A DNA stretch of 64,000 bases from an uncultured delta proteobacterium (GTDB lineage Bacteria; Desulfobacterota; Syntrophia; Syntrophales; UBA8958), in assembly GCA_903885795.1 (NCBI GenBank), contig CAISJV010000092.1:1-64000 (forward strand), written 5' to 3'. A model generated the notes under the pieces. It made no database searches, was not told the origin of the DNA, and saw only the letters and a program-made list of their open reading frames with translations. The number at the start of each line of letters is the position of its first letter. Positions within the stretch are counted from its first letter, which is position 1. This document shows positions 1,912 to 35,798 of the stretch, in pieces. A program made the position numbers and the translations under genes.

Positions 1912-3144
1912 TCATGCCGTGACCCCTTTTTCTATCTCCCCTCCCTCTGTGGCGGCTTCCTGTGGCGGATCGACCAATTTCAATGTAAATTTCCCCTCAA
2001 TTTTATCCGCCGCTGCCACTTTGGATGAGTCAACAGAATGCAAATAAATCTCCGTTGTCCGGACGGCTTTATGCCTAAGCATACCGCTGACCGTTTTCAA
2101 TGATACCTTCTCTTCGTCCATCAGATAAGATGCCATGAAATGACGCAGGGAATGGAAGCCATAATAGCGGGGAACGGTCCTGCGTTTCTCTTCCTCCCGG
2201 ATAGCCCTTTTGTGCTTCTTCTCAAAAGCTTTTACCTGCGCCGGCGTCAATACGATGGTCCGGGTCCCCAACGGATCCAGACCCGCACGCTTGCAAACGG
2301 CATCCATCAGCCGAGGACGGTGCTTGAATCTATCGCCCTTTCCCTCATTCGCTTTCTCATTCCAGAAAACCCACCTGTCCTGTTTCCTGCCCTTCCAGCA
2401 AGACATCAGGACATCGTGCAGGTCTTTGTTCATCGGAAGGACATCGGGCTCGTAGGCGCCATTTTTACGCTTCCTGGTCCATAGAATGATATGCCGCTTA
2501 TCAAAGTTGACATCCTCATGCCAACGGAGCCGGAGTACCTCATCGATGCGCCCCAGGGTTTGGATACAGACGAGAAGAATATCTCTCTCGTCCCCAGGCT
2601 TGGCCGCGGCAATCATCCGAAGAACGTCCTTCTCGGTGGGGATTTCCTTCTCCGCAGTGACATGGGTCATGGCCTCGACACCGGTGCATGGGTTCATTAG
2701 CAGGGGGACCTGGACGGCATAGATGCGCTTCGCCCAATTAAAGAGGGCAGACAGCTCTTGTCGATGTTCATTGTAGAGGCTGTTGGTTTTAAGTATCTTT
2801 AGGTAGTCATGGATATGCCGGGGAGTTATCTCGTCAATAGGAAGGTCGCCATCAGGAAGGGATGCCCGGAAGCTCCGGCAGACATTAACTTTCCTGAGAT
2901 AGACATCTTTCACAAATTTCCTTTGCGCGAAATCGAGGTAGTCGTTTGCTATGGATTTAAATCCCGTGGCGGTTATGGTCTGCTGTGGAGCCGCCACAAC
3001 TTTCGTCTTCACTTCTTCCCGGCGCTTTGCCCTTGCCGCTTCCGCCTCTCTTCTGGTACCGAACCCCCGCGCACCGTAGGCTTTCCTCATGTATTCGAAC
3101 TTGTACACCCATTCTTTGGATTCCTTGTCCTTGTAGATTCCCAT
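1912..3144 (-). CDS. int: Tyrosine recombinase (phage-type integrase)
   Basis: About 410 residues: an N-terminal Arm-type domain (MGIYKDKESKEWVYKF), a core-binding domain, and a C-terminal catalytic domain. Catalytic residues visible are Arg in LGRIDEVLRLRW, HSLRHF (His-x-x-Arg), His in MLRHKAVRT and the nucleophile Tyr in TEIYLHS. It should join and cut the element at the adjacent tRNA-Val 3' end. The ATG at 3144 is chosen because GGAGG lies just upstream; the open frame extends to 3219 without support. The upstream Xis-like ORF overlaps its start. Related alternatives (defence-island or ICE integrase) fit equally. Confidence 0.92.
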   Translation of the reverse strand: MGIYKDKESKEWVYKFEYMRKAYGARGFGTRREAEAARAKRREEVKTKVVAAPQQTITATGFKSIANDYLDFAQRKFVKDVYLRKVNVCRSFRASLPDGDLPIDEITPRHIHDYLKILKTNSLYNEHRQELSALFNWAKRIYAVQVPLLMNPCTGVEAMTHVTAEKEIPTEKDVLRMIAAAKPGDERDILLVCIQTLGRIDEVLRLRWHEDVNFDKRHIILWTRKRKNGAYEPDVLPMNKDLHDVLMSCWKGRKQDRWVFWNEKANEGKGDRFKHRPRLMDAVCKRAGLDPLGTRTIVLTPAQVKAFEKKHKRAIREEEKRRTVPRYYGFHSLRHFMASYLMDEEKVSLKTVSGMLRHKAVRTTEIYLHSVDSSKVAAADKIEGKFTLKLVDPPQEAATEGGEIEKGVTA

Positions 3145-3283
3145 AGATGACCTCCGGCCTGAAGCGCAGAACTTTAATCCCGAAAGGGTAGAACCCTCCA
3201 AGATCAATGGCCCTATCATATACCGTCCTCACGGAAACATTCAAGAGCTTTGCTACGTCATTTACGGTCAATAGTTGATTCAT
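2957..3283 (-). CDS. Excisionase-like helix-turn-helix protein
   Basis: The first 45 residues (MNQLLTVNDVAKLLNVSVRT and following) form a MerR/excisionase-type winged helix (HTH_17), which binds DNA to steer integrase toward excision. After about residue 50 the frame runs on for some 60 residues inside the integrase gene in another frame, so the true C-terminus may be much shorter if there is a frameshift. It sits directly upstream of int, the typical place for a recombination directionality factor. Confidence 0.65.
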   Translation of the reverse strand: MNQLLTVNDVAKLLNVSVRTVYDRAIDLGGFYPFGIKVLRFRPEVIYGNLQGQGIQRMGVQVRIHEESLRCAGVRYQKRGGSGKGKAPGRSEDESCGGSTADHNRHGI

Positions 3284-8333: not shown

Positions 8334-10076
8334 TTATAAACTTGATTCCGCTATAAACCTTGACACCGGGCTCTGATAAATCCGCCCGTTGCTTTCCGAT
8401 GTTTCCGGCCTGACCGTTAAGATAAGCTGATCCTTCGCCCTGGTCATGGCGACGTACATAAGGCGTCTTTCGGACTCCAGATCCACGGCACCGATTGCTT
8501 GCTTGCTTGGGATGATACCCTCATTGCATCCAGCCACGATGACGACCGGCCATTCTAACCCTTTGGCGGTATGGATGGTCATTAAAGTGATCCCGGCCTG
8601 ATCCTCTTTCATTTCATCATGAACCTCGTAAGTGGCCAGCCAGGTAAGGTAATCGACGATGGTCTCATTCCCGGTGCGGTCTGCATCCCATGAATTAATA
8701 AAGGCCGCAGATTCGGGGGACAGCGAGGGATATCTGTCCATTATCCCTTCACATGTATCATTAAGATTCCATACGACTTCATCACCCACAAATAATGCAG
8801 GGGCGCCCGTATGGTCAGTATCCAGCCATACCAGAAAATGACTATTACCCGCTTCCGCCGCCTGTACCCTGATTCGCCCGTATTCTTCCCGTGTAATTCC
8901 GACGATATCCTTGATAAGTAGAAATGAGAAATTGTCATAAGGGTTCACGATCAACTTCAAGAACGCATGAAACCGGCGGAAGGACTCACTATTTGTCAAT
9001 GCCGAATTTCTCCCGATGTAGGCATGAGGGATATTTGCCTCTTCCATGAGGCGATCAATCTTTTCGAGCAGGTAGTGATTTCTGGCAAGGATGGCCACGG
9101 GTTCCGACCGCGCCCAAGGATCGCTTAAAAGGTCAACGATGAAAGCACTATCGCAATCTTTTCGAACGATAACACTTTCTACGCCGCCCCCTCTTGTCGC
9201 CTTCATCGTCTTTGTGATGCGGTCCTGATTATGCTCAATCAAGTTATTAGCTGCGGAGACAATTTCTGGAACGCTACGATAATTGAATTCCAGGCGGAAG
9301 ATATCGAATTCGTTTTGGTGGTCAACAAGGTACTTCGGCGCCGCCCCCCTCCATTGGTAGATGGATTGATCCACATCACCCACGACAAACAGGGACGCGT
9401 TAAAGGCCTTCTCCATTTCAAGGATGATTGCCCATTGAAGGCGGTCAATATCCTGTACCTCATCGACCAGGATATGCTTGACGTGCAGATACTTGGCCAG
9501 CGTCGGGATAAGCAACCTCAGTCCGATTAACAAGCCGCCATAGGTCAGGCTATTATTCTCCCGGCACCGCTGAATGAAGGCACGAAACAGATCCTTTACG
9601 GGGCTCTCTTCGGTGGGCTCGATGCCGCGCTGATAGTAGGCATTGAAAACGGTGTCGATATCTCGCTTCGGGATCTTCCATGACTTGCCGCTGTGCAATC
9701 CCATTTCCAGGGCAACATCTTTGAGCAAAAACGACTCTTCCCAGTCGCTATAAACGGTTACGGCTTTCGATTTCAAACCGATGACCTCCCCGAAACGGTT
9801 GATCATTGATAGTGCCAGGGCATGCATGGTGCCAAGGGCGCATCTGTGGGCTTTGTTGCCGATACGATCAACGAGGCGGTTGCGGATTTCGCCGGAGGCC
9901 TTCCTGGTGAACGTGAAGGCCATACATTCATAGGGGCTCACCTTGCATTCTTCGGTCAGATAGGCGATGCGCTCGATGAGGACGTGTGTCTTTCCCGATC
10001 CGGCCCCGGCCAAGACCAGGGCACGGCGGGAATCAGTTTTGACGGCTGCGGTTTGTTGAGGGTCAAGAGGGTTCAT
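8334..10076 (-). CDS. UvrD/Rep-type superfamily 1A DNA helicase
   Basis: About 580 residues from ATG 10076. Motifs in order: Q motif LDPQQTAAV, Walker A AGAGSGKT (residues 23-30), ILVDEVQDID, VGDVDQSIYQWRGA, MTIHTAKGLEW and YVAMTRAKDQL. It unwinds DNA 3' to 5' and probably works with the SMC-like ATPase in phage-type recombination or replication. The start is fixed by the ATGA overlap with the upstream gene; the longer open frame to 10241 overlaps that gene. It is somewhat shorter than UvrD itself (about 720). Confidence 0.9.
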   Translation of the reverse strand: MNPLDPQQTAAVKTDSRRALVLAGAGSGKTHVLIERIAYLTEECKVSPYECMAFTFTRKASGEIRNRLVDRIGNKAHRCALGTMHALALSMINRFGEVIGLKSKAVTVYSDWEESFLLKDVALEMGLHSGKSWKIPKRDIDTVFNAYYQRGIEPTEESPVKDLFRAFIQRCRENNSLTYGGLLIGLRLLIPTLAKYLHVKHILVDEVQDIDRLQWAIILEMEKAFNASLFVVGDVDQSIYQWRGAAPKYLVDHQNEFDIFRLEFNYRSVPEIVSAANNLIEHNQDRITKTMKATRGGGVESVIVRKDCDSAFIVDLLSDPWARSEPVAILARNHYLLEKIDRLMEEANIPHAYIGRNSALTNSESFRRFHAFLKLIVNPYDNFSFLLIKDIVGITREEYGRIRVQAAEAGNSHFLVWLDTDHTGAPALFVGDEVVWNLNDTCEGIMDRYPSLSPESAAFINSWDADRTGNETIVDYLTWLATYEVHDEMKEDQAGITLMTIHTAKGLEWPVVIVAGCNEGIIPSKQAIGAVDLESERRLMYVAMTRAKDQLILTVRPETSESNGRIYQSPVSRFIAESSL

Positions 10077-10624
10077 AATGTGACCACCTTCCACGCCAAC
10101 GGGATCACTTTCGGCTGATGGCAACTTGATACAATGCATTGCATATCCGCCGCCTCGTATTTCCGCAGCGCCTCCGTCAGATGTTCGCCGTCCATTTCCG
10201 CCGCCTCTACGAGTAAAATAGAGCCCCCCAAGGCCCGACAAAGCGCCGGATCAAATGCCGCCTTTTCACCGCCCGATAATCCGGAATAGGGGACGCTCAC
10301 CTTGCCGTTATTCCAACCGATGAAAAGGGAGCCATCTTCCCGGATTTCTACCATGGCCGATCCAGCGGGGAGGACTTCATTCATTCGCCGCGACATGGCC
10401 GCCGTGACGGTCTGCATGGCCGCGTTTTTCCGCTCGGTAAGGTCTTTGAGATTTGTCTTCTCTGTGCCGAGTTCATCGCGGGTGCGGTTTGATTCGGCCC
10501 TGAGTTTTTCTGTCTCTTCGTGAAGACCTTTCGCTTTGAGGAAGAGGTCCTTTTTGCCTTGGAGGTCTTTTAGTGACGCCTCCATGCCGTTGATGTAGTC
10601 GATAAGTAATTGTTTTTCAGACAT
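10073..10624 (-). CDS. C-terminal half of a split SMC/RecN-like ATPase
   Basis: 183 residues: a coiled coil (about 5-75), then the ABC signature SGLSGGEKAAF near residue 118 and a Walker B-like strand GGSILLVEAAEMDGEHL. No Walker A is present; that lies in the upstream gene. In Walker B the usual Asp-Glu pair reads Glu-Ala, so catalysis may be weak or the Glu supplied elsewhere. The ATG directly abuts the stop of the other half at 10625. Together they should form one ATP-dependent DNA-binding head. Confidence 0.75.
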   Translation of the reverse strand: MSEKQLLIDYINGMEASLKDLQGKKDLFLKAKGLHEETEKLRAESNRTRDELGTEKTNLKDLTERKNAAMQTVTAAMSRRMNEVLPAGSAMVEIREDGSLFIGWNNGKVSVPYSGLSGGEKAAFDPALCRALGGSILLVEAAEMDGEHLTEALRKYEAADMQCIVSSCHQPKVIPLAWKVVTL

Positions 10625-11692
10625 TCACGCCGCCTCCCTTCCTTGATATTTCCTTAATTCTCTCACCGCCACCAGCCGCGCCGCACACGCCGAGCATCCG
10701 GCGCCGTTCAGGGCGTCGAGGATGGCCCTGATCCCTTCTGTGGGGTCAACGGGATATCCCATAAGCTTCGCGATGGGGTTTATAAAGGTGATTGGTTCGT
10801 CCGGTTTCTGAGCGGGTCCGCCGGCCATTAGCGAGACAACGGTATCTGCCATTTCATTGAGGACTTTCCCCGTCGTCTTCACAGCAGCCTTGACGTCATC
10901 CGCCTTGATCTTTTCCGCCTGTTCTTTAAGTAATTCCCGGCGGGCGTCCTCTTTGCCCTTCTCTTCAGCCGCCGCAATCGCCTTGTCAGATTTCTCTTTT
11001 TCCTCGGCAATAGTCTTTTGTCGCAACTCTTCCGTCTCCGCGTCCTTCAAATCCTGCCGCGCCTGGGTCAACTTATCCTCCGCGTCCTTGATCTGAAAAT
11101 GAACCTCCGCCGCTGTACCTGTCGGAAGTTCCATGGCGGCCCTTGCCGTCGTCAATCTTGCCGCCGCCTCTTCCATGGATTTGGCCGTGGCCGTTAGCGC
11201 ATTAATTCTGCTTTTGGTTGTCTCGATATCAAAGACGATCTTTGAGATATCCGCTTCCGGCGGATAGAGGTCAAAAACGGCGTCAATCTTTTTCTGATCA
11301 CTGAGGGCCATGAAAGCCCCAATGTCGATTGCAACAGGCCTTCCGGCTTCTCCCATGGCCTGAGAAAACAATTCCTTCGTTTTCTTCTTTCCGCCGACTC
11401 CATAACCTTGGGAAACGGTTTCTCCGGACCTGGCATATTTGCGCTGAAAGAGAATGCCGCCGTCGCCTATTTTGGCACCTACGGCCATCTCCTTGCCGTC
11501 TCCGTAGTTATCAAGGATATCCGCGTTCTGCTTGCCGCTGCCGGGGATATAACCAAGGAGGGCCAAAATAAGCGCCTGAGAGCGAGCGGATTTTCCGGCT
11601 CCGTTTGGACCGATGAAAAGGGTAAGGCGGTCGATGTCCTGGGTGAAGGTAAGGCCTTTGATGTTTTGTCCTGATATTTGGGTTATTGGCAT
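10625..11692 (-). CDS. N-terminal half of a split SMC/Rad50-like ATPase
   Basis: 355 residues: Walker A GPNGAGKSARSQAL near residue 28, then a long Ala/Glu/Lys-rich coiled coil (about 150-270), then a C-terminal segment with CSAC near residue 335, reminiscent of a zinc-hook Cys-x-x-Cys. It lacks the ABC signature and Walker B, which are encoded by the next gene. Phage recombination operons often carry a Rad50/SbcC-like ATPase beside an annealing protein; the 405-residue gene upstream may be that partner. Confidence 0.75.
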   Translation of the reverse strand: MPITQISGQNIKGLTFTQDIDRLTLFIGPNGAGKSARSQALILALLGYIPGSGKQNADILDNYGDGKEMAVGAKIGDGGILFQRKYARSGETVSQGYGVGGKKKTKELFSQAMGEAGRPVAIDIGAFMALSDQKKIDAVFDLYPPEADISKIVFDIETTKSRINALTATAKSMEEAAARLTTARAAMELPTGTAAEVHFQIKDAEDKLTQARQDLKDAETEELRQKTIAEEKEKSDKAIAAAEEKGKEDARRELLKEQAEKIKADDVKAAVKTTGKVLNEMADTVVSLMAGGPAQKPDEPITFINPIAKLMGYPVDPTEGIRAILDALNGAGCSACAARLVAVRELRKYQGREAA

Positions 11693-11703
11693 GATGTCCT
11701 CCC

Positions 11704-12921
11704 TTACGCCGCTTTATCAACGATGCTGTTGACGGCGATCATGATCTTCCCGGCGGACTGAGCGTCATGCTCTGCGTCCGGTTCGATTCCGAGTGATTGA
11801 CAAGCCGCGACGTATTCAGGCCGGAAACTCTTTTTTGTCTCCGCCAAGTTCGCCAATATTCGCCGGTCCTCTTCGGATAACGCGGGCACTGCCGCGGGCT
11901 CGTCTTTTCCGGGTCCGGAGGGGATATCAATACCCTGATCTTCCGGGGCCTCTTCCGCCTCTAAAATAGCCGCCGCTTCATCGTCGCTGGATCTCTCCGC
12001 CCCGCTCTGTATTTCGATCTGCTTGAATTCCGAGCGGTCGCCGGATACCATCTTTCCGACGCGGTTCTGAAGGTTGGCGTATTGCGTCGCATCCCATTTG
12101 ATGACGTTGCCATTCGTCGGGCGCCAGGACACGACCGGGATGGTCCATACGTTTCCGGGGGCTTTCTGGATACCGCTCAAATGTTTCAGGGCATTTCTTT
12201 TGGCGAAGGTCTGAGCGAAGTCGATGCTTTTCTTTTCGCGGTTGATGATGCTGGCCAGCCATTTCAAGGCTTCATCGTGAGTCGTGTTCATCCAAAGGTT
12301 TGTTGCCTCGTCAAAGGGATATTTCGCCCACGTTCCTTTGCTTTCAGGTTCAATGTCCGCCGGATTCATATCGGACGGCAATAGCCGAAACGCCTGGGGA
12401 AACTGTTTCGCCTTGCCGAGTAAGTCGATCATCCTGTAGGATGGCGTGTCATAGATCGTGGTCCAATCGCTGACCATCGGGATGCCTTTGGAACTGAAAC
12501 GGAAGGCCACGGCACGGGCGTAAATCATGAGGATGCGACCGCTTTTATCGTCGCGGATCACGGCGGGGTTTTGCTGCCATTTCTCATTGACAAGAACTTC
12601 TGAGGGAAAAATCACACATGCGCCAGATGCTTCCTGCCAGACCTCGTACCCCTGTGCGGACAGTGCAAAGGGTCCACCGGGAACGGGCTGGATCAGCGTG
12701 CCGCCCTTTTCCGTCAATGTAAGCGCCTGTTTGAATGCCCTGATTTCGCCGTCATTGTCCCTGAGGGCGAAAACTTCATCGGTGGCCAGGCGGATTATGT
12801 CTTTTTTGATGATTCCCGCGAAGATTTCCGCCTCTTTCGGGAACTGCGACTTGATCGCCTCGATTGCCATTTCCGCTGTCACGGGCGTCGCCTGTATTGC
12901 TACTGCTTGATTTACTGCCAT
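11704..12921 (-). CDS. Phage-type protein, possible DNA-annealing or recombination protein
   Basis: 405 residues, no clear family. The central region (YARAVAFRFSSKGIPMVSDW around residue 135, then SWRPTNGNVIKWDATQYANL around 268) is globular, and the last 100 residues are acidic and probably flexible. It is first in the leftward early operon after the Cro side of the switch and directly precedes the split ATPase. By position a single-strand annealing role is possible, but no RecT or Erf motif is visible. Confidence 0.6.
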   Translation of the reverse strand: MAVNQAVAIQATPVTAEMAIEAIKSQFPKEAEIFAGIIKKDIIRLATDEVFALRDNDGEIRAFKQALTLTEKGGTLIQPVPGGPFALSAQGYEVWQEASGACVIFPSEVLVNEKWQQNPAVIRDDKSGRILMIYARAVAFRFSSKGIPMVSDWTTIYDTPSYRMIDLLGKAKQFPQAFRLLPSDMNPADIEPESKGTWAKYPFDEATNLWMNTTHDEALKWLASIINREKKSIDFAQTFAKRNALKHLSGIQKAPGNVWTIPVVSWRPTNGNVIKWDATQYANLQNRVGKMVSGDRSEFKQIEIQSGAERSSDDEAAAILEAEEAPEDQGIDIPSGPGKDEPAAVPALSEEDRRILANLAETKKSFRPEYVAACQSLGIEPDAEHDAQSAGKIMIAVNSIVDKAA

Positions 12922-27788: not shown

Positions 27789-28391
27789 TCATCGGGGAAG
27801 GTTGTTGATGTAGCTTATTGTATTTTTCGCAATATCAGTTGAATCGATCATTACGGAGAATTCATTGTTGTACTTCAAGGCCGATTGGGTCAGGTTATGG
27901 CTGCCAATAAAGGTAAACCGTTTATCGATCACAGCCAGTTTGGAATGTGTCATTTTTCCGGGATTGTCGAAATAAACGGTGATACCAGCTTTTTTCATCC
28001 GCTGCGCCGTCGCGGCGTTCTCGTCGTTTACAAAGGAATCCGTTCGATCGTCCTTTTCCAGAATGACGGTGACCAGAACCCCTCTTTGCCGCGCTTTGGC
28101 CAGGTTATCCAGAATGATGTCGGTATAGCTTGCGGGGAACCCGTTTGTTTTAAAGAGGTAAATGGCTATGACGATCTCTTTCTTGGCTTCCTGTATCTTT
28201 TTGGAAAGGCTGGGGAAATAGTCCTTGTCCATAAGCAGCGTCACCGGATATCCCTTGCAGTCATCGCGAGTTGACAAAGCAGGCATGGCGAGCATCAGGC
28301 ACAAGGCGGCACATACCGCCAGGAACAGCAGCCGGTGGCCGGCGCTGAGTTTATTTTTTCTCCTCTTTTCCGCTGATGTGTTGTGGTTCAT
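27789..28391 (-). CDS. Exported phospholipase D-like nuclease (single HKD domain)
   Basis: 200 residues: a hydrophobic N-terminal segment (RLLFLAVCAALCLMLAMPAL) and one HKD motif, MTHSKLAVIDKRFTFIGSHN near residue 147. Single-HKD proteins such as plasmid Nuc form dimers that cut DNA without metal. Plasmids often carry one near transfer genes. It has its own TTGATC-type promoter at about 28425-28452. A lipid substrate cannot be excluded. Confidence 0.85.
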   Translation of the reverse strand: MNHNTSAEKRRKNKLSAGHRLLFLAVCAALCLMLAMPALSTRDDCKGYPVTLLMDKDYFPSLSKKIQEAKKEIVIAIYLFKTNGFPASYTDIILDNLAKARQRGVLVTVILEKDDRTDSFVNDENAATAQRMKKAGITVYFDNPGKMTHSKLAVIDKRFTFIGSHNLTQSALKYNNEFSVMIDSTDIAKNTISYINNLPR

Positions 28392-28519
28392 CGGACCTCC
28401 TGTGTTAGAAATTTTTCCTCATAAGTTCAAAGATGAACAGCATAGATCAAATTTGTTCCCGGCGTTAACGGCATCGTATCGGGAGGAACGTTATTTCCAC
28501 GAGTGGTTTTTGATAAATG

Positions 28520-28694
28520 AGATTGGTGTGCTATTACGCCAAAAGACCATAACCCTGTGTTCCATCCATGGCACATCACTAAAGGCTCTTACCCCCTTTA
28601 GCATTTTGCGCCGGATGGAGTGTTTACGCCTACTCTTTAAAGGATGGCTGCTTCTAAGCCTACCTCCCAATCAAATCGGAAACGGGATTGGATT
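28520..28694 (-). ncRNA. Candidate RNA mimicking the 23S rRNA GTPase-centre (L11-binding) domain
   Basis: Read leftward, 28667-28617 gives GGAGGTA, then GGCTTAGAAGCAGCCATC, then CTTTAAAGA, GCGTAA and CTCC. This is the order and nearly the sequence of the L11-binding domain of bacterial 23S rRNA (E. coli about 1050-1110). The closing stem GGAG/CTCC is kept although the surrounding bases differ. Further downstream are the hairpin CTAAAGG/CCTTTAG and a second GCGTAATAGC (28539-28530). It begins right after the DUF2493 stop, so it would be made as a 3' extension of that mRNA or from an unseen promoter. Confidence 0.6.
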
Positions 28695-29075
28695 TTATGC
28701 TGGGCTGTCAAATGTAACAACCTTCAGCGGAAGCCTGTGGTCTTTTGCAATCGTGATCATATGCTGTGTACCCAGTGAGTAACCATCCCAAAAGACCACG
28801 ACGGCATCCGCGACTCCGGCCATTTCTTCATTCCTGCGGTATCCCGCTACTTTACCGTGCCTGTTCCAGTCCGCAGGAAACCTTTCAACCTGGAAGCCGC
28901 GATCCCTCGCGTAACGTTCGCCAACAAGATCGGCGCCGCGTGCTGTTCCTGAAATAATGGTAACGGCGTTCCCTTCCTTTATTTGCCTGGAAAGGGACGC
29001 ATCCATTTCCTTTGCAAGCGCCGAGTAGTCGCTGAATGTTCTTGAACCAGCTATGACACACCTAAATGTCTTCAT
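28695..29075 (-). CDS. DUF2493 (SLOG-superfamily, YspA-like) protein
   Basis: 126 residues from ATG 29075, which has a GGAAGG site upstream. CVIAGSRTFSDY, SGTARGADLVGERYA, ADWNRHGKVAGYRRNEEMA and VVFWDGYSLGTQ are the family motifs. SLOG proteins bind nucleotide-derived ligands, and many are linked to stress or defence signalling; the exact ligand of DUF2493 is not known. Confidence 0.88.
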   Translation of the reverse strand: MKTFRCVIAGSRTFSDYSALAKEMDASLSRQIKEGNAVTIISGTARGADLVGERYARDRGFQVERFPADWNRHGKVAGYRRNEEMAGVADAVVVFWDGYSLGTQHMITIAKDHRLPLKVVTFDSPA

Positions 29076-33598: not shown

Positions 33599-34630
33599 TC
33601 AACCGATCTCGATATGCCAGATTTTGTCGTCGATTGGGGACACCTCAATGTTGACATCGATAAAACGCTTGATTACATCGATGTTGGTCAACGTGTGTTG
33701 TGTCAACTGGCATGTCCTGAAAGATCCTCCCTTTGCCAAAGTCATGGGAATCAGCAGCTGATCGGCGAGATAGGGTCCAACGGGGGCGCCTGACGCTATG
33801 AAATGTCTTGCTTCCTTTACGGCATCCATGGCTACCGTTTCTGAGGCGACACCGCGTTTCCCGAAAGAGGTGATCATTTCCGTGATGCCGTCACAGACAA
33901 TCTCGATGAAAAGAACATTTCCCGGACCGGGACTGACCACCTGATTGACGGCAACATGAAGGCCATCAAGGTCTAACTTATCCTTTACAAAGCTTACTTC
34001 ACGAAGTCCAATGCTCTCCGGCAGGCAGGCGACAATCGCCGTTGCCTTGCTTTCCCTGATTTGTCCCCGTTCGCTCAGATCGATTCTTGCCAGTTCCCTG
34101 ACCGGTTCGATGTTTACATGGAGACACCCACCGCCAGCCGGATAGAAGCCATATCTCTCAAGCGATGACGTCACCATAGGCCCCATCCGGTTCAGGACGG
34201 GCAGAAATACCCTTTCCAGAAAATCGACAGGCGGCGCCCACGGGTTGTGGGTTCCCCCTTCCAGGGTAAGATGAGAAGACTCCCCGGCCAGCATGAGGGC
34301 AGGCAGGACTGTTTGCAGTACCAGAGTGACGCTTCCCGCAGAACCGATGGAGAATTTATAGGTTCCGCCTGTTACCCTTCCTGGCGCAAAATGGATCTCC
34401 GATGAACCTATTTCGGCGCCTTGGACGGTAGCGGCGGAAATCTCCTGCGCCGCCTTCAAGGCAACCAGGTGTTGCCTCTGCAGACCTGATTTCTTCCGGC
34501 CTGCACGTATTCTTTCCATTTTCAACGGTCTTCCCATAATCATGGAAAGGGCGAGGGACGTTCTCAGGATCTGTCCTCCTCCTTCACCCATAGACCCGTC
34601 AATGGTAACTGTTTCGTCTTTCATTATCAC
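33599..34630 (-). CDS. rtcA: RNA 3'-terminal phosphate cyclase
   Basis: 343 residues. GSMGEGGGQILRTSLALSMI, RAGRKKSGLQRQH, and the C-terminal ADQLLIPMTLAKGGSF and QLTQHTLTNIDVIKRF (catalytic His region) identify RtcA. It uses ATP to turn RNA 3'-phosphates into 2',3'-cyclic phosphates, feeding RtcB. It lies 4 bases after rtcB, so the two form one operon; no RtcR gene is nearby in the window. Confidence 0.95.
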   Translation of the reverse strand: MIMKDETVTIDGSMGEGGGQILRTSLALSMIMGRPLKMERIRAGRKKSGLQRQHLVALKAAQEISAATVQGAEIGSSEIHFAPGRVTGGTYKFSIGSAGSVTLVLQTVLPALMLAGESSHLTLEGGTHNPWAPPVDFLERVFLPVLNRMGPMVTSSLERYGFYPAGGGCLHVNIEPVRELARIDLSERGQIRESKATAIVACLPESIGLREVSFVKDKLDLDGLHVAVNQVVSPGPGNVLFIEIVCDGITEMITSFGKRGVASETVAMDAVKEARHFIASGAPVGPYLADQLLIPMTLAKGGSFRTCQLTQHTLTNIDVIKRFIDVNIEVSPIDDKIWHIEIG

Positions 34631-34634
34631 GTGA

Positions 34635-35798
34635 TCAACCTTTAATCACCGCAAGGGGTTCCAGTCTTACGACGATATCCACGAGATCCTGCTGTTCTTC
34701 CATCACCGCATCAATATCCTTATAGGCGCCTGCCGCTTCTTCGAGATCCTGCTTGCCGCGGATGGCATGGAGAATCCCCTTATCGTCGAGGGCCTTTTGC
34801 TCCGCTTCAAGATCGAGGTTCCTGATGGCCGCCTGTCTTCCCATTTTACGGCCGGCGCCATGGGAACAGCTCATGAAACTCTCGGGATTTCCTTTTCCTC
34901 TTACAATGTAGCTGGCCGTTCCCTGGGAACCGGGGATGATCCCCATCTCTCCATCTCGCGCTGATGTTGCGCCTTTCCGGTGGACGATGACGTTCTTGCC
35001 GAAATGATGCTCGAATACAGCATAATTATGATGGATGTTGATTGGTTCATCAAATTCCACATCCGGTATTTCCGTACGGAAGGCTGTTCGCACCCTGTCG
35101 GCCATCAGTTTTCGATTGGCAAGGGCGAATTCCAGACAGTAACGCATCTCTCGCAAATATGTCTTTGCCTCATCCGTTTCAATGGGCAGGAAGGCCAGTT
35201 CCCATTTCTTCGGGACAACGGAATGCCATCGCTCATTCAAGGCAATAGCCGTCCGGTTGTATCGGCTGGCCACCTTGAGCCCGATATTCCGGCTTCCCGA
35301 ATGGATCATGAACCAGATACGGCCGTCCGATCCTTTCTGGATTTCGATGAAGTGATTGCCGCCACCCAGGGTTCCGATCTGCTTGCACGCGGAGCGGTAT
35401 TGGCGGTTCACCTCCGGATACAGGTCCGGATCTTCCATCTGCGGCATCAAACTTTCGTCCTGGGCTTTTTCCTGGTGGTCGAAGCCGACGGGAACAGTTT
35501 CCCTGATTTTGCCAAGGATTTTCTTGAGCACCGGCAAATCGATGCCCGTCAGGCTTGATCCTGTCGCCAGCATTCCACAGCCGATATCGACGCCGACGGC
35601 ATTGGGAATTACAACACCATTCGTGGCAATGACGCCGCCGATGGGCATCCCATAGCCTTCGTGGATGTCGGGCATGAGACAGACCTGCCTGAAGATGAAC
35701 GGCAGGTTTGCCAGATTCTTTGCCTGCGTGAGGGCGTTTCCTTCCGGGTTGTTGCACCAGCTCTTGATGATAACGCCTTCCGTATCAATGTATTGCAT
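34635..35798 (-). CDS. rtcB: RNA-splicing ligase RtcB
   Basis: 387 residues, close to the E. coli enzyme. Metal and GMP-binding motifs are in place: VGVDIGCGM, LGGGNHFIEI, HSGSRNIG, INIHHNYA, and CSHGAGRKMGR with the guanylylated His. It joins RNA ends bearing 2',3'-cyclic phosphate or 3'-phosphate to 5'-OH ends in a GTP and Mn-dependent reaction. First gene of the rtcBA operon, preceded by a 465-base noncoding region with a tRNA-like segment. Confidence 0.96.
   Translation of the reverse strand: MQYIDTEGVIIKSWCNNPEGNALTQAKNLANLPFIFRQVCLMPDIHEGYGMPIGGVIATNGVVIPNAVGVDIGCGMLATGSSLTGIDLPVLKKILGKIRETVPVGFDHQEKAQDESLMPQMEDPDLYPEVNRQYRSACKQIGTLGGGNHFIEIQKGSDGRIWFMIHSGSRNIGLKVASRYNRTAIALNERWHSVVPKKWELAFLPIETDEAKTYLREMRYCLEFALANRKLMADRVRTAFRTEIPDVEFDEPINIHHNYAVFEHHFGKNVIVHRKGATSARDGEMGIIPGSQGTASYIVRGKGNPESFMSCSHGAGRKMGRQAAIRNLDLEAEQKALDDKGILHAIRGKQDLEEAAGAYKDIDAVMEEQQDLVDIVVRLEPLAVIKG

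Follow-up and report, generated by a model that had tools for sequence, protein, structure and literature searches.

The minus strand of the window, the 64,000-nucleotide stretch of an uncultured delta proteobacterium contig that was analysed here, carries an element of ~155 nt containing the complete L11-binding domain of 23S rRNA (1055–1104, E. coli numbering), which is closed by a stem of its own and broken between 1090 and 1091 by an insert. It belongs to a family of 130 distinct members, all with both halves of the domain, in 129 loci (112 IMG/VR contigs, nine phage isolates, six bacterial contigs, the window and a sister genome). The family is carried mainly by large tRNA-rich phages and in the window by an integrated mobile element. 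We regard it as virtually certain that this is a real structured RNA family, which is apparently undescribed so far. Judging from sequence, there is about an even chance that it is best explained as a decoy acting in trans on the uL11 of the host or on factors that read the uL11/GTPase centre.

The order on the minus strand was found to be GATTGG, GAGGTAGGCTTAGAAGCAGCCATCCTTTAAAGAGT, an insert of ~90 nt, GGCGTAATAGCACAC and CAATC (Table 1). An earlier note, made from this DNA alone, had described a minus-strand copy of the L11-binding domain; the copy is real and its motifs lie where they had been placed, and it is larger than first noted because the whole domain is present. The first GCGTAA...CTCC (28629–28617), which the note had read as H44 and the closing strand, is part of the insert, and in the sister genome the GCGTAA is replaced by ACGTAA. 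The relatives place the conserved closing stem in GATTGG/CCAATC and not in a stem with CTCC. The second GCGTAATAGC that had been noticed further on does exist, not as an extra copy but as the true H44 in the 3' half. When the region 28400–28760 was searched with cmscan, the LSU covariance models gave one relevant match, LSU rRNA positions 1181–1232 at 28668–28614 on the minus strand (RF02541/RF02540; 29.4 bits, E 5e-7, 55 nt), which is under the Rfam gathering score of 50 bits. The match did not continue into flanking rRNA or lengthen into a longer rRNA alignment, and the Rfam scan of the window showed no further rRNA, as the earlier note had said of the surroundings. A DUF805b match (14 bits, E 0.26) was rejected as chance. 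The 5' half is near identical to the 23S of relatives from the host's order, which were used for comparison because the host's own 23S L11 domain was not found in the assembly.

Table 1. Features of the RNA element in the window and its neighbouring genes.
Feature	Position	Strand	Remarks
Whole RNA element (phage L11-domain mimic RNA)	28519..28674	-	Closing stem, L11 domain and insert
P1 closing stem, 5' strand GATTGG	28668..28673	-	Pairs with CCAATC, one T-T mismatch
P1 closing stem, 3' strand CCAATC	28520..28525	-	
5' part of L11-binding domain = 23S 1055–1090 (H43 with 1067 loop; A at 1061)	28632..28667	-	LSU model match and column map
Insert between 1090 and 1091	28541..28631	-	Closed by helix 28631–28629/28546–28544; holds false GCGTAA 28629–28624
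Insert sub-domain, CATCC..GGCGCAAAATGCTAAAGG..CCTTTAGTGATGTGCC..GGATG hairpin	28563..28618	-	Common to G001 (sister genome), L020, L043, L046, L083, L125, L137, L146, L183
H44 hairpin GGCGTAATAGC = 23S 1091–1100, with 1095 loop	28530..28540	-	
Upstream gene, YAcAr/DUF2493 SLOG protein	28695..29060	-	PF10686, E 2.8e-17; also beside the RNA in G001
Downstream gene, PLD-like nuclease, signal-like N terminus	27789..28391	-	PF13091, E 2.1e-25

The features that define the family are all seen in the window. The 5' half of the domain is followed by the insert and by RGCGTARYAGCACAC (28540–28526), and P1 forms five pairs directly adjoining the domain and then one mismatch. The insert helix (GTRGG/CYTTT in the family) is made of A-T, G-C and G-T, with T-A at 1090–1101, and the triple 1072·(1092–1099) is C·C-G. 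No promoter or terminator of its own was evident for the window element.

A BLAST search with the region returned non-rRNA stretches of the Pseudomonas phages pf16, Astolliot and Milchi, which adjoin tRNA genes, and 5' and 3' patterns were built from these stretches; real 23S matches neither of them. The 5' pattern was found in 26 viral contigs, and the scan of bacterial and archaeal genome contigs gave no match to it. The 3' pattern, CYTTTRGCGTARYAGCACAC, occurred in at least 120 viral contigs and in 10 bacterial contigs, far above chance, as it gave no match when read backwards. The 3' half lies within 650 nt in 25 of the 26 loci fetched by the 5' half alone (by regular expression), and the 26th, L027, has a one-base variant of it, GCGTGATAGCACAC, recognised by eye. 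Similarly, loci fetched by the insert motif CACCCCRKAAMYGGTAAGG alone have the L11 domain around the motif, except those cut by the contig end or by the length displayed. The insert motif AAATGCTAA..TTAGTGATGTGC is also present in two contigs without a surrounding L11 domain (L168 and L169), and is thus informative only inside the domain. A covariance model of the family (R1) scores real 23S as high as family members, since the domain does not differ between them and the long inserts are more than it can bridge; explicit two-part patterns were therefore used to decide on membership.

Among the isolate carriers are the Pseudomonas phages pf16, Astolliot, Milchi and UNO-G1W1, Aeromonas phage 4_4572, the Xanthomonas phages XacN1 and XbC2, and the jumbo phages GAP32, CBB, BF, Kaldavass and the pEa_SNUABM group. 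In Astolliot (L003, ~1165–1490) and Milchi (L004, same region), a second, divergent copy was observed upstream of the first, GGGCTTAGAAGTAGCC...GGTGTCATAACACGCC, having U1072 with U1092-A1099 and an insert that resembles that of XacN1; ~300 nt of this region are nearly identical between the two phages and the flanks differ. Small hypothetical ORFs deposited over the RNA (L004:1537–1668 and L147:1451–1558 on the opposite strand, and L153:1533–1625) are probably spurious. At gathering score, no Rfam 15 model matched the RNA itself in the window or in family members of ~30 loci, and a known Rfam RNA was rejected as its identity on this ground. A phage L11-domain RNA or phage rRNA mimic found no mention in the literature searched, a body that leaves aside most preprints and papers behind a subscription. 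The family may have escaped standard ncRNA pipelines because these mask rRNA-like sequence.

Covariation was measured in 72 diverse members, leaving out the window and the sister genome. The expected structure was paired in 94.4% of cells as compared with 72.5% in shuffled sets. The compensatory changes that the earlier note had proposed to look for were found in 16 of the 23 pairs, with double-sided changes in 404 cells against 133 ± 9.6 in shuffled sets, where cells count sequences and not independent events, the members coming from many different phages and samples. The signal was gone when partners were shifted by 1–3 columns. An unsupervised search over all column pairs put P1, 1058–1080, 1082–1086 and the insert helix on top. 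P1 covaries freely, with every pair type in the family; the pair 1058–1080 is GC, UA, AU or CG, 1082–1086 is UA, CG or AU, and the insert helix has GC or AU as its outer pair. Because the exact patterns fix several columns of the 3' half, part of the invariance seen there is by construction, and the conclusions rest on the columns left free; none of the covarying pairs named above is imposed by the patterns.

The triple 1072·(1092–1099), tested without fixing position 1072, was found to be C·C-G in 96 and U·U-A in 34 of the 130 members, with no mixed case. Since this contact joins two hairpins in space and switches as a unit, the three-dimensional fold is conserved and under selection. The same triple reportedly covaries in rRNA too, according to work of the Draper group. 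As far as can be read from sequence, the family RNAs very probably adopt the three-dimensional fold of the ribosomal L11 domain. The proposal of the earlier note that the element is an RNA mimic of the GTPase-centre domain is thereby strongly supported, by the family and by its secondary and tertiary covariation, although the H44 copy and the closing stem had been chosen wrongly.

The same data bear on the alternative raised in that note, a captured and decaying 23S rRNA fragment. The near identity of the 5' half to 23S of the host's order is what such a scrap would leave, but the fragment would share neither the non-ribosomal insert helix nor the recurrence of one architecture in phages of distant hosts, and rRNA flanks are absent. 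The covariation of the pairs and of the triple across the family refutes it, and we consider its probability practically negligible. The features that exclude rRNA are the free P1, U1090-A1101, the insert helix and the lack of flanking rRNA; 1089–1090 is always GU in the family, with A (rarely G) at 1101.

The family retains the two functional loops, 1067 and 1093–1098. A1067 is found in 78 of 89 members and is replaced by G, C or U in the other 11, so the mimic may not serve thiopeptide or factor ligands; in rRNA this position is nearly universally A, and it is a thiopeptide-resistance site, central for thiopeptide binding and factor contact. The part of H42 that binds L10 (kink-turn) is absent from the family RNAs, and therefore the full stalk cannot assemble on them. 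The A at 1061 of the window element is shared by ~20% of the family and is the variant used in in vitro L11-binding work (PMC10161774).

The insert between 1090 and 1091, at the point where H44 meets the junction, ranges from 21 to 439 nt (median 129) and is very variable, with recurring sub-domains, none of which is common to all members. The helix that closes it is common to the family and non-ribosomal. The hairpin of the window insert, GGCGCAAAATGCTAA...TTAGTGATGTGCC, recurs in the viral L020, L043, L046, L083, L125 and L183 and in the bacterial contigs L137 and L146. A second insertion near 1078/1079 was seen in L083, L134, L121, L041, L063 and L064, indicating that the domain tolerates extra helices at two places. 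In the GAP32-group jumbo phages (L150–L154) a T run comes directly after the P1 stem (CAACGGCTTTTTAATT), and P1 may double there as an intrinsic terminator.

In the sister genome (G001, same genus) the copy is 95% identical and stands between the same neighbouring genes, and its differences from the window keep the pairs (for example GCAAAATGC to GCGAAACGC and, in the insert helix, G-U to A-U). The DUF2493 gene does lie upstream of the window RNA, which begins ~22 nt past its stop codon and not directly after it as first described. The RNA is likely cotranscribed with this SLOG gene. The DUF2493-plus-domain arrangement was recovered in the sister genome, but a SLOG match was present in only one of the 112 viral loci with the RNA and a PLD gene in none, so both genes are local neighbours and are not supported as obligate partners; the link to DUF2493 is confined to one bacterial genus. 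The element is part of an integrated island with an integrase (1912–3219) beside a tRNA gene (1816–1887), and the island also carries an int-alpA RNA, an S24 repressor, SSB, RadC, a DUF6094 methyltransferase and an SNF2 helicase; no phage structural genes were found among the island proteins scanned. The island may also hold a defence module at 8334–12921, where a GajB-like UvrD helicase adjoins an AAA ATPase weakly similar to AriA and a 405-aa protein that has no family assignment.

By nature the RNA belongs to large phages with tRNA arrays and not to a DUF2493 module. Many members lie inside such arrays, 42% of members are ≤100 nt from a tRNA as compared with 23% of random places in the same loci, and all 100 of the 100 tRNAs within 300 nt of the RNA are on its strand. 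The neighbours in phages are GOLLD, tmRNA and dense tRNA arrays. In L008 (1582–2047) a GOLLD RNA and a family member stand among tRNAs, the GOLLD RNA 100 nt upstream, and tmRNA was seen in L093 (858–1082, a permuted-tmRNA match) and L182 (5544–5843). None of the eight genes tested in the 112 viral loci is a constant protein neighbour. The uL11 gene was absent from 30 carrier phage records, with the control matched in 14 of 14 genomes; a phage-encoded uL11 was thus rejected, and the partner would be the host's.

These contexts also bear on whether the RNA could be a leader that responds to uL11 and regulates the following gene in cis. Ribosomal-protein leaders do mimic rRNA sites (uL1, PMC10931766) and the PLD gene starts 128 nt downstream of the window RNA, but the features downstream vary among carriers and are often tRNAs, and with uL11 missing from the phage records and PLD from the viral loci we hold a leader to be very improbable.

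The tRNA-array context with its uniform strand speaks for a ribosome-docking or factor-capturing RNA, in which the L11 domain would be a handle and not a sink, bringing uL11, EF-Tu, EF-G, IF2 or RelA to the inserted domain or to phage tRNAs and ncRNAs nearby (GOLLD, tmRNA). The long, variable inserts with their recurring sub-domains and the GOLLD RNA beside the L008 member agree with this, as GOLLD is known to pull down ribosomes (PMC12286853). The shortest inserts (~21 nt), however, leave little space for a cargo domain and no sub-domain is present in all members, and we judge docking unlikely.

Phage tRNAs serve as counter-defence, resisting anticodon nucleases, and the RNA, placed with phage tRNAs and keeping both the 1067 and the 1093–1098 loops, could by analogy mimic the target of an immune toxin or enzyme recognising GTPase-centre RNA. 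RNA-repair or RNA-binding genes were seen near a few members (L140:916–2962, L142:2522–4714, L149:830–1480, L145:2070–3593 and window 33599–35798), namely RtcB, Thg1, RNA ligase with kinase/phosphatase, an RNA ligase annotated 2'-5', a DUF2828 'RNA-binding protein' and RtcA/RtcB. The RNA-repair genes lend this reading some support, but they occur near at most 1–4 of the 112 viral loci and were rejected as a conserved partner. We know of no toxin acting on 23S 1051–1108, and a target mimic seems quite improbable.

For the decoy, the conserved part of the family is almost exactly the 58-nt self-sufficient L11-binding fragment. L11-deficient (relC-type) ribosomes fail to activate RelA. The 58-nt GAC RNA alone binds L11 (PMC10161774), and the family RNA probably binds uL11 as well. 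Transcribed with neighbouring genes or tRNAs, it would fold like the ribosomal domain, as an independently folding copy on its own stem, and would bind free host uL11 or factors recognising the uL11/GTPase-centre surface. Acting in trans as a decoy, it would alter translation in the host, or the stringent response that depends on L11, to the advantage of the element. A trap for uL11 could yield L11-poor ribosomes on which RelA is not activated, and this would help a phage that drains amino acids. That decoy or sequestration is the purpose of the RNA we put just short of an even chance; titrating an abundant ribosomal protein needs enough RNA, which is a point against it, and the L11 domain may be a handle for an insert in which the real function lies. 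The boldest form, in which a widespread phage RNA sequesters host uL11 and leaves L11-free, RelA-unresponsive ribosomes in infection as an RNA-based block of the stringent response, is unlikely.

The L11 domain is the meeting place of translational GTPases, L11, RelA and thiopeptide antibiotics. Phages carry tRNAs, tmRNA and a few ribosomal-protein genes, and to our knowledge no phage RNA reproduces a functional rRNA domain as an independent molecule. If uL11 sequestration holds true, this would be the first trans-acting rRNA-domain decoy. Few complexes have been studied in biophysics as thoroughly as that of L11 with its RNA, and the function is therefore testable at once in vitro.

The family was compared with known systems. 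T4 RNA C and RNA D, stable RNAs without a known function, are likewise encoded by a phage beside its tRNA genes, and were rejected as homologues as their sequences are without the L11-domain motif. GOLLD and ROOL are structured phage ncRNAs of unknown function in or beside tRNA arrays, but the family RNA is much shorter and carries an rRNA domain; neither model gave a gathering-score match in the window or over the members of ~30 loci, and GOLLD was found only as the L008 neighbour. OLE RNA has been proposed to form a ribosome-like pocket that sequesters the ribosomal protein RpsU (PMC12286853). It differs in being cellular and not phage-borne and in having no known L11 domain, and the element had no Rfam match to OLE; OLE and GOLLD share an idea with the family RNA and not sequence. 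Leaders of the uL1/rplK type also mimic an rRNA protein-binding site outside rRNA, but they act in cis before ribosomal-protein genes, whereas the genes directly downstream of the family RNA include no ribosomal-protein gene (a PLD-like nuclease in the window, tRNAs or hypothetical genes in phages). The closest system is the 23S GTPase-associated centre itself (L11-binding domain, E. coli 1051–1108), which has the same secondary structure and loop sequences and shares the triple 1072·(1092–1099) and the pairs 1082–1086 and 1058–1080. Unlike it, the family RNA is a stand-alone molecule with its own variable closing stem, free of the H42 kink-turn and of rRNA flanks, with GU at 1089–1090, A (rarely G) at 1101 and an insert of 21–439 nt.
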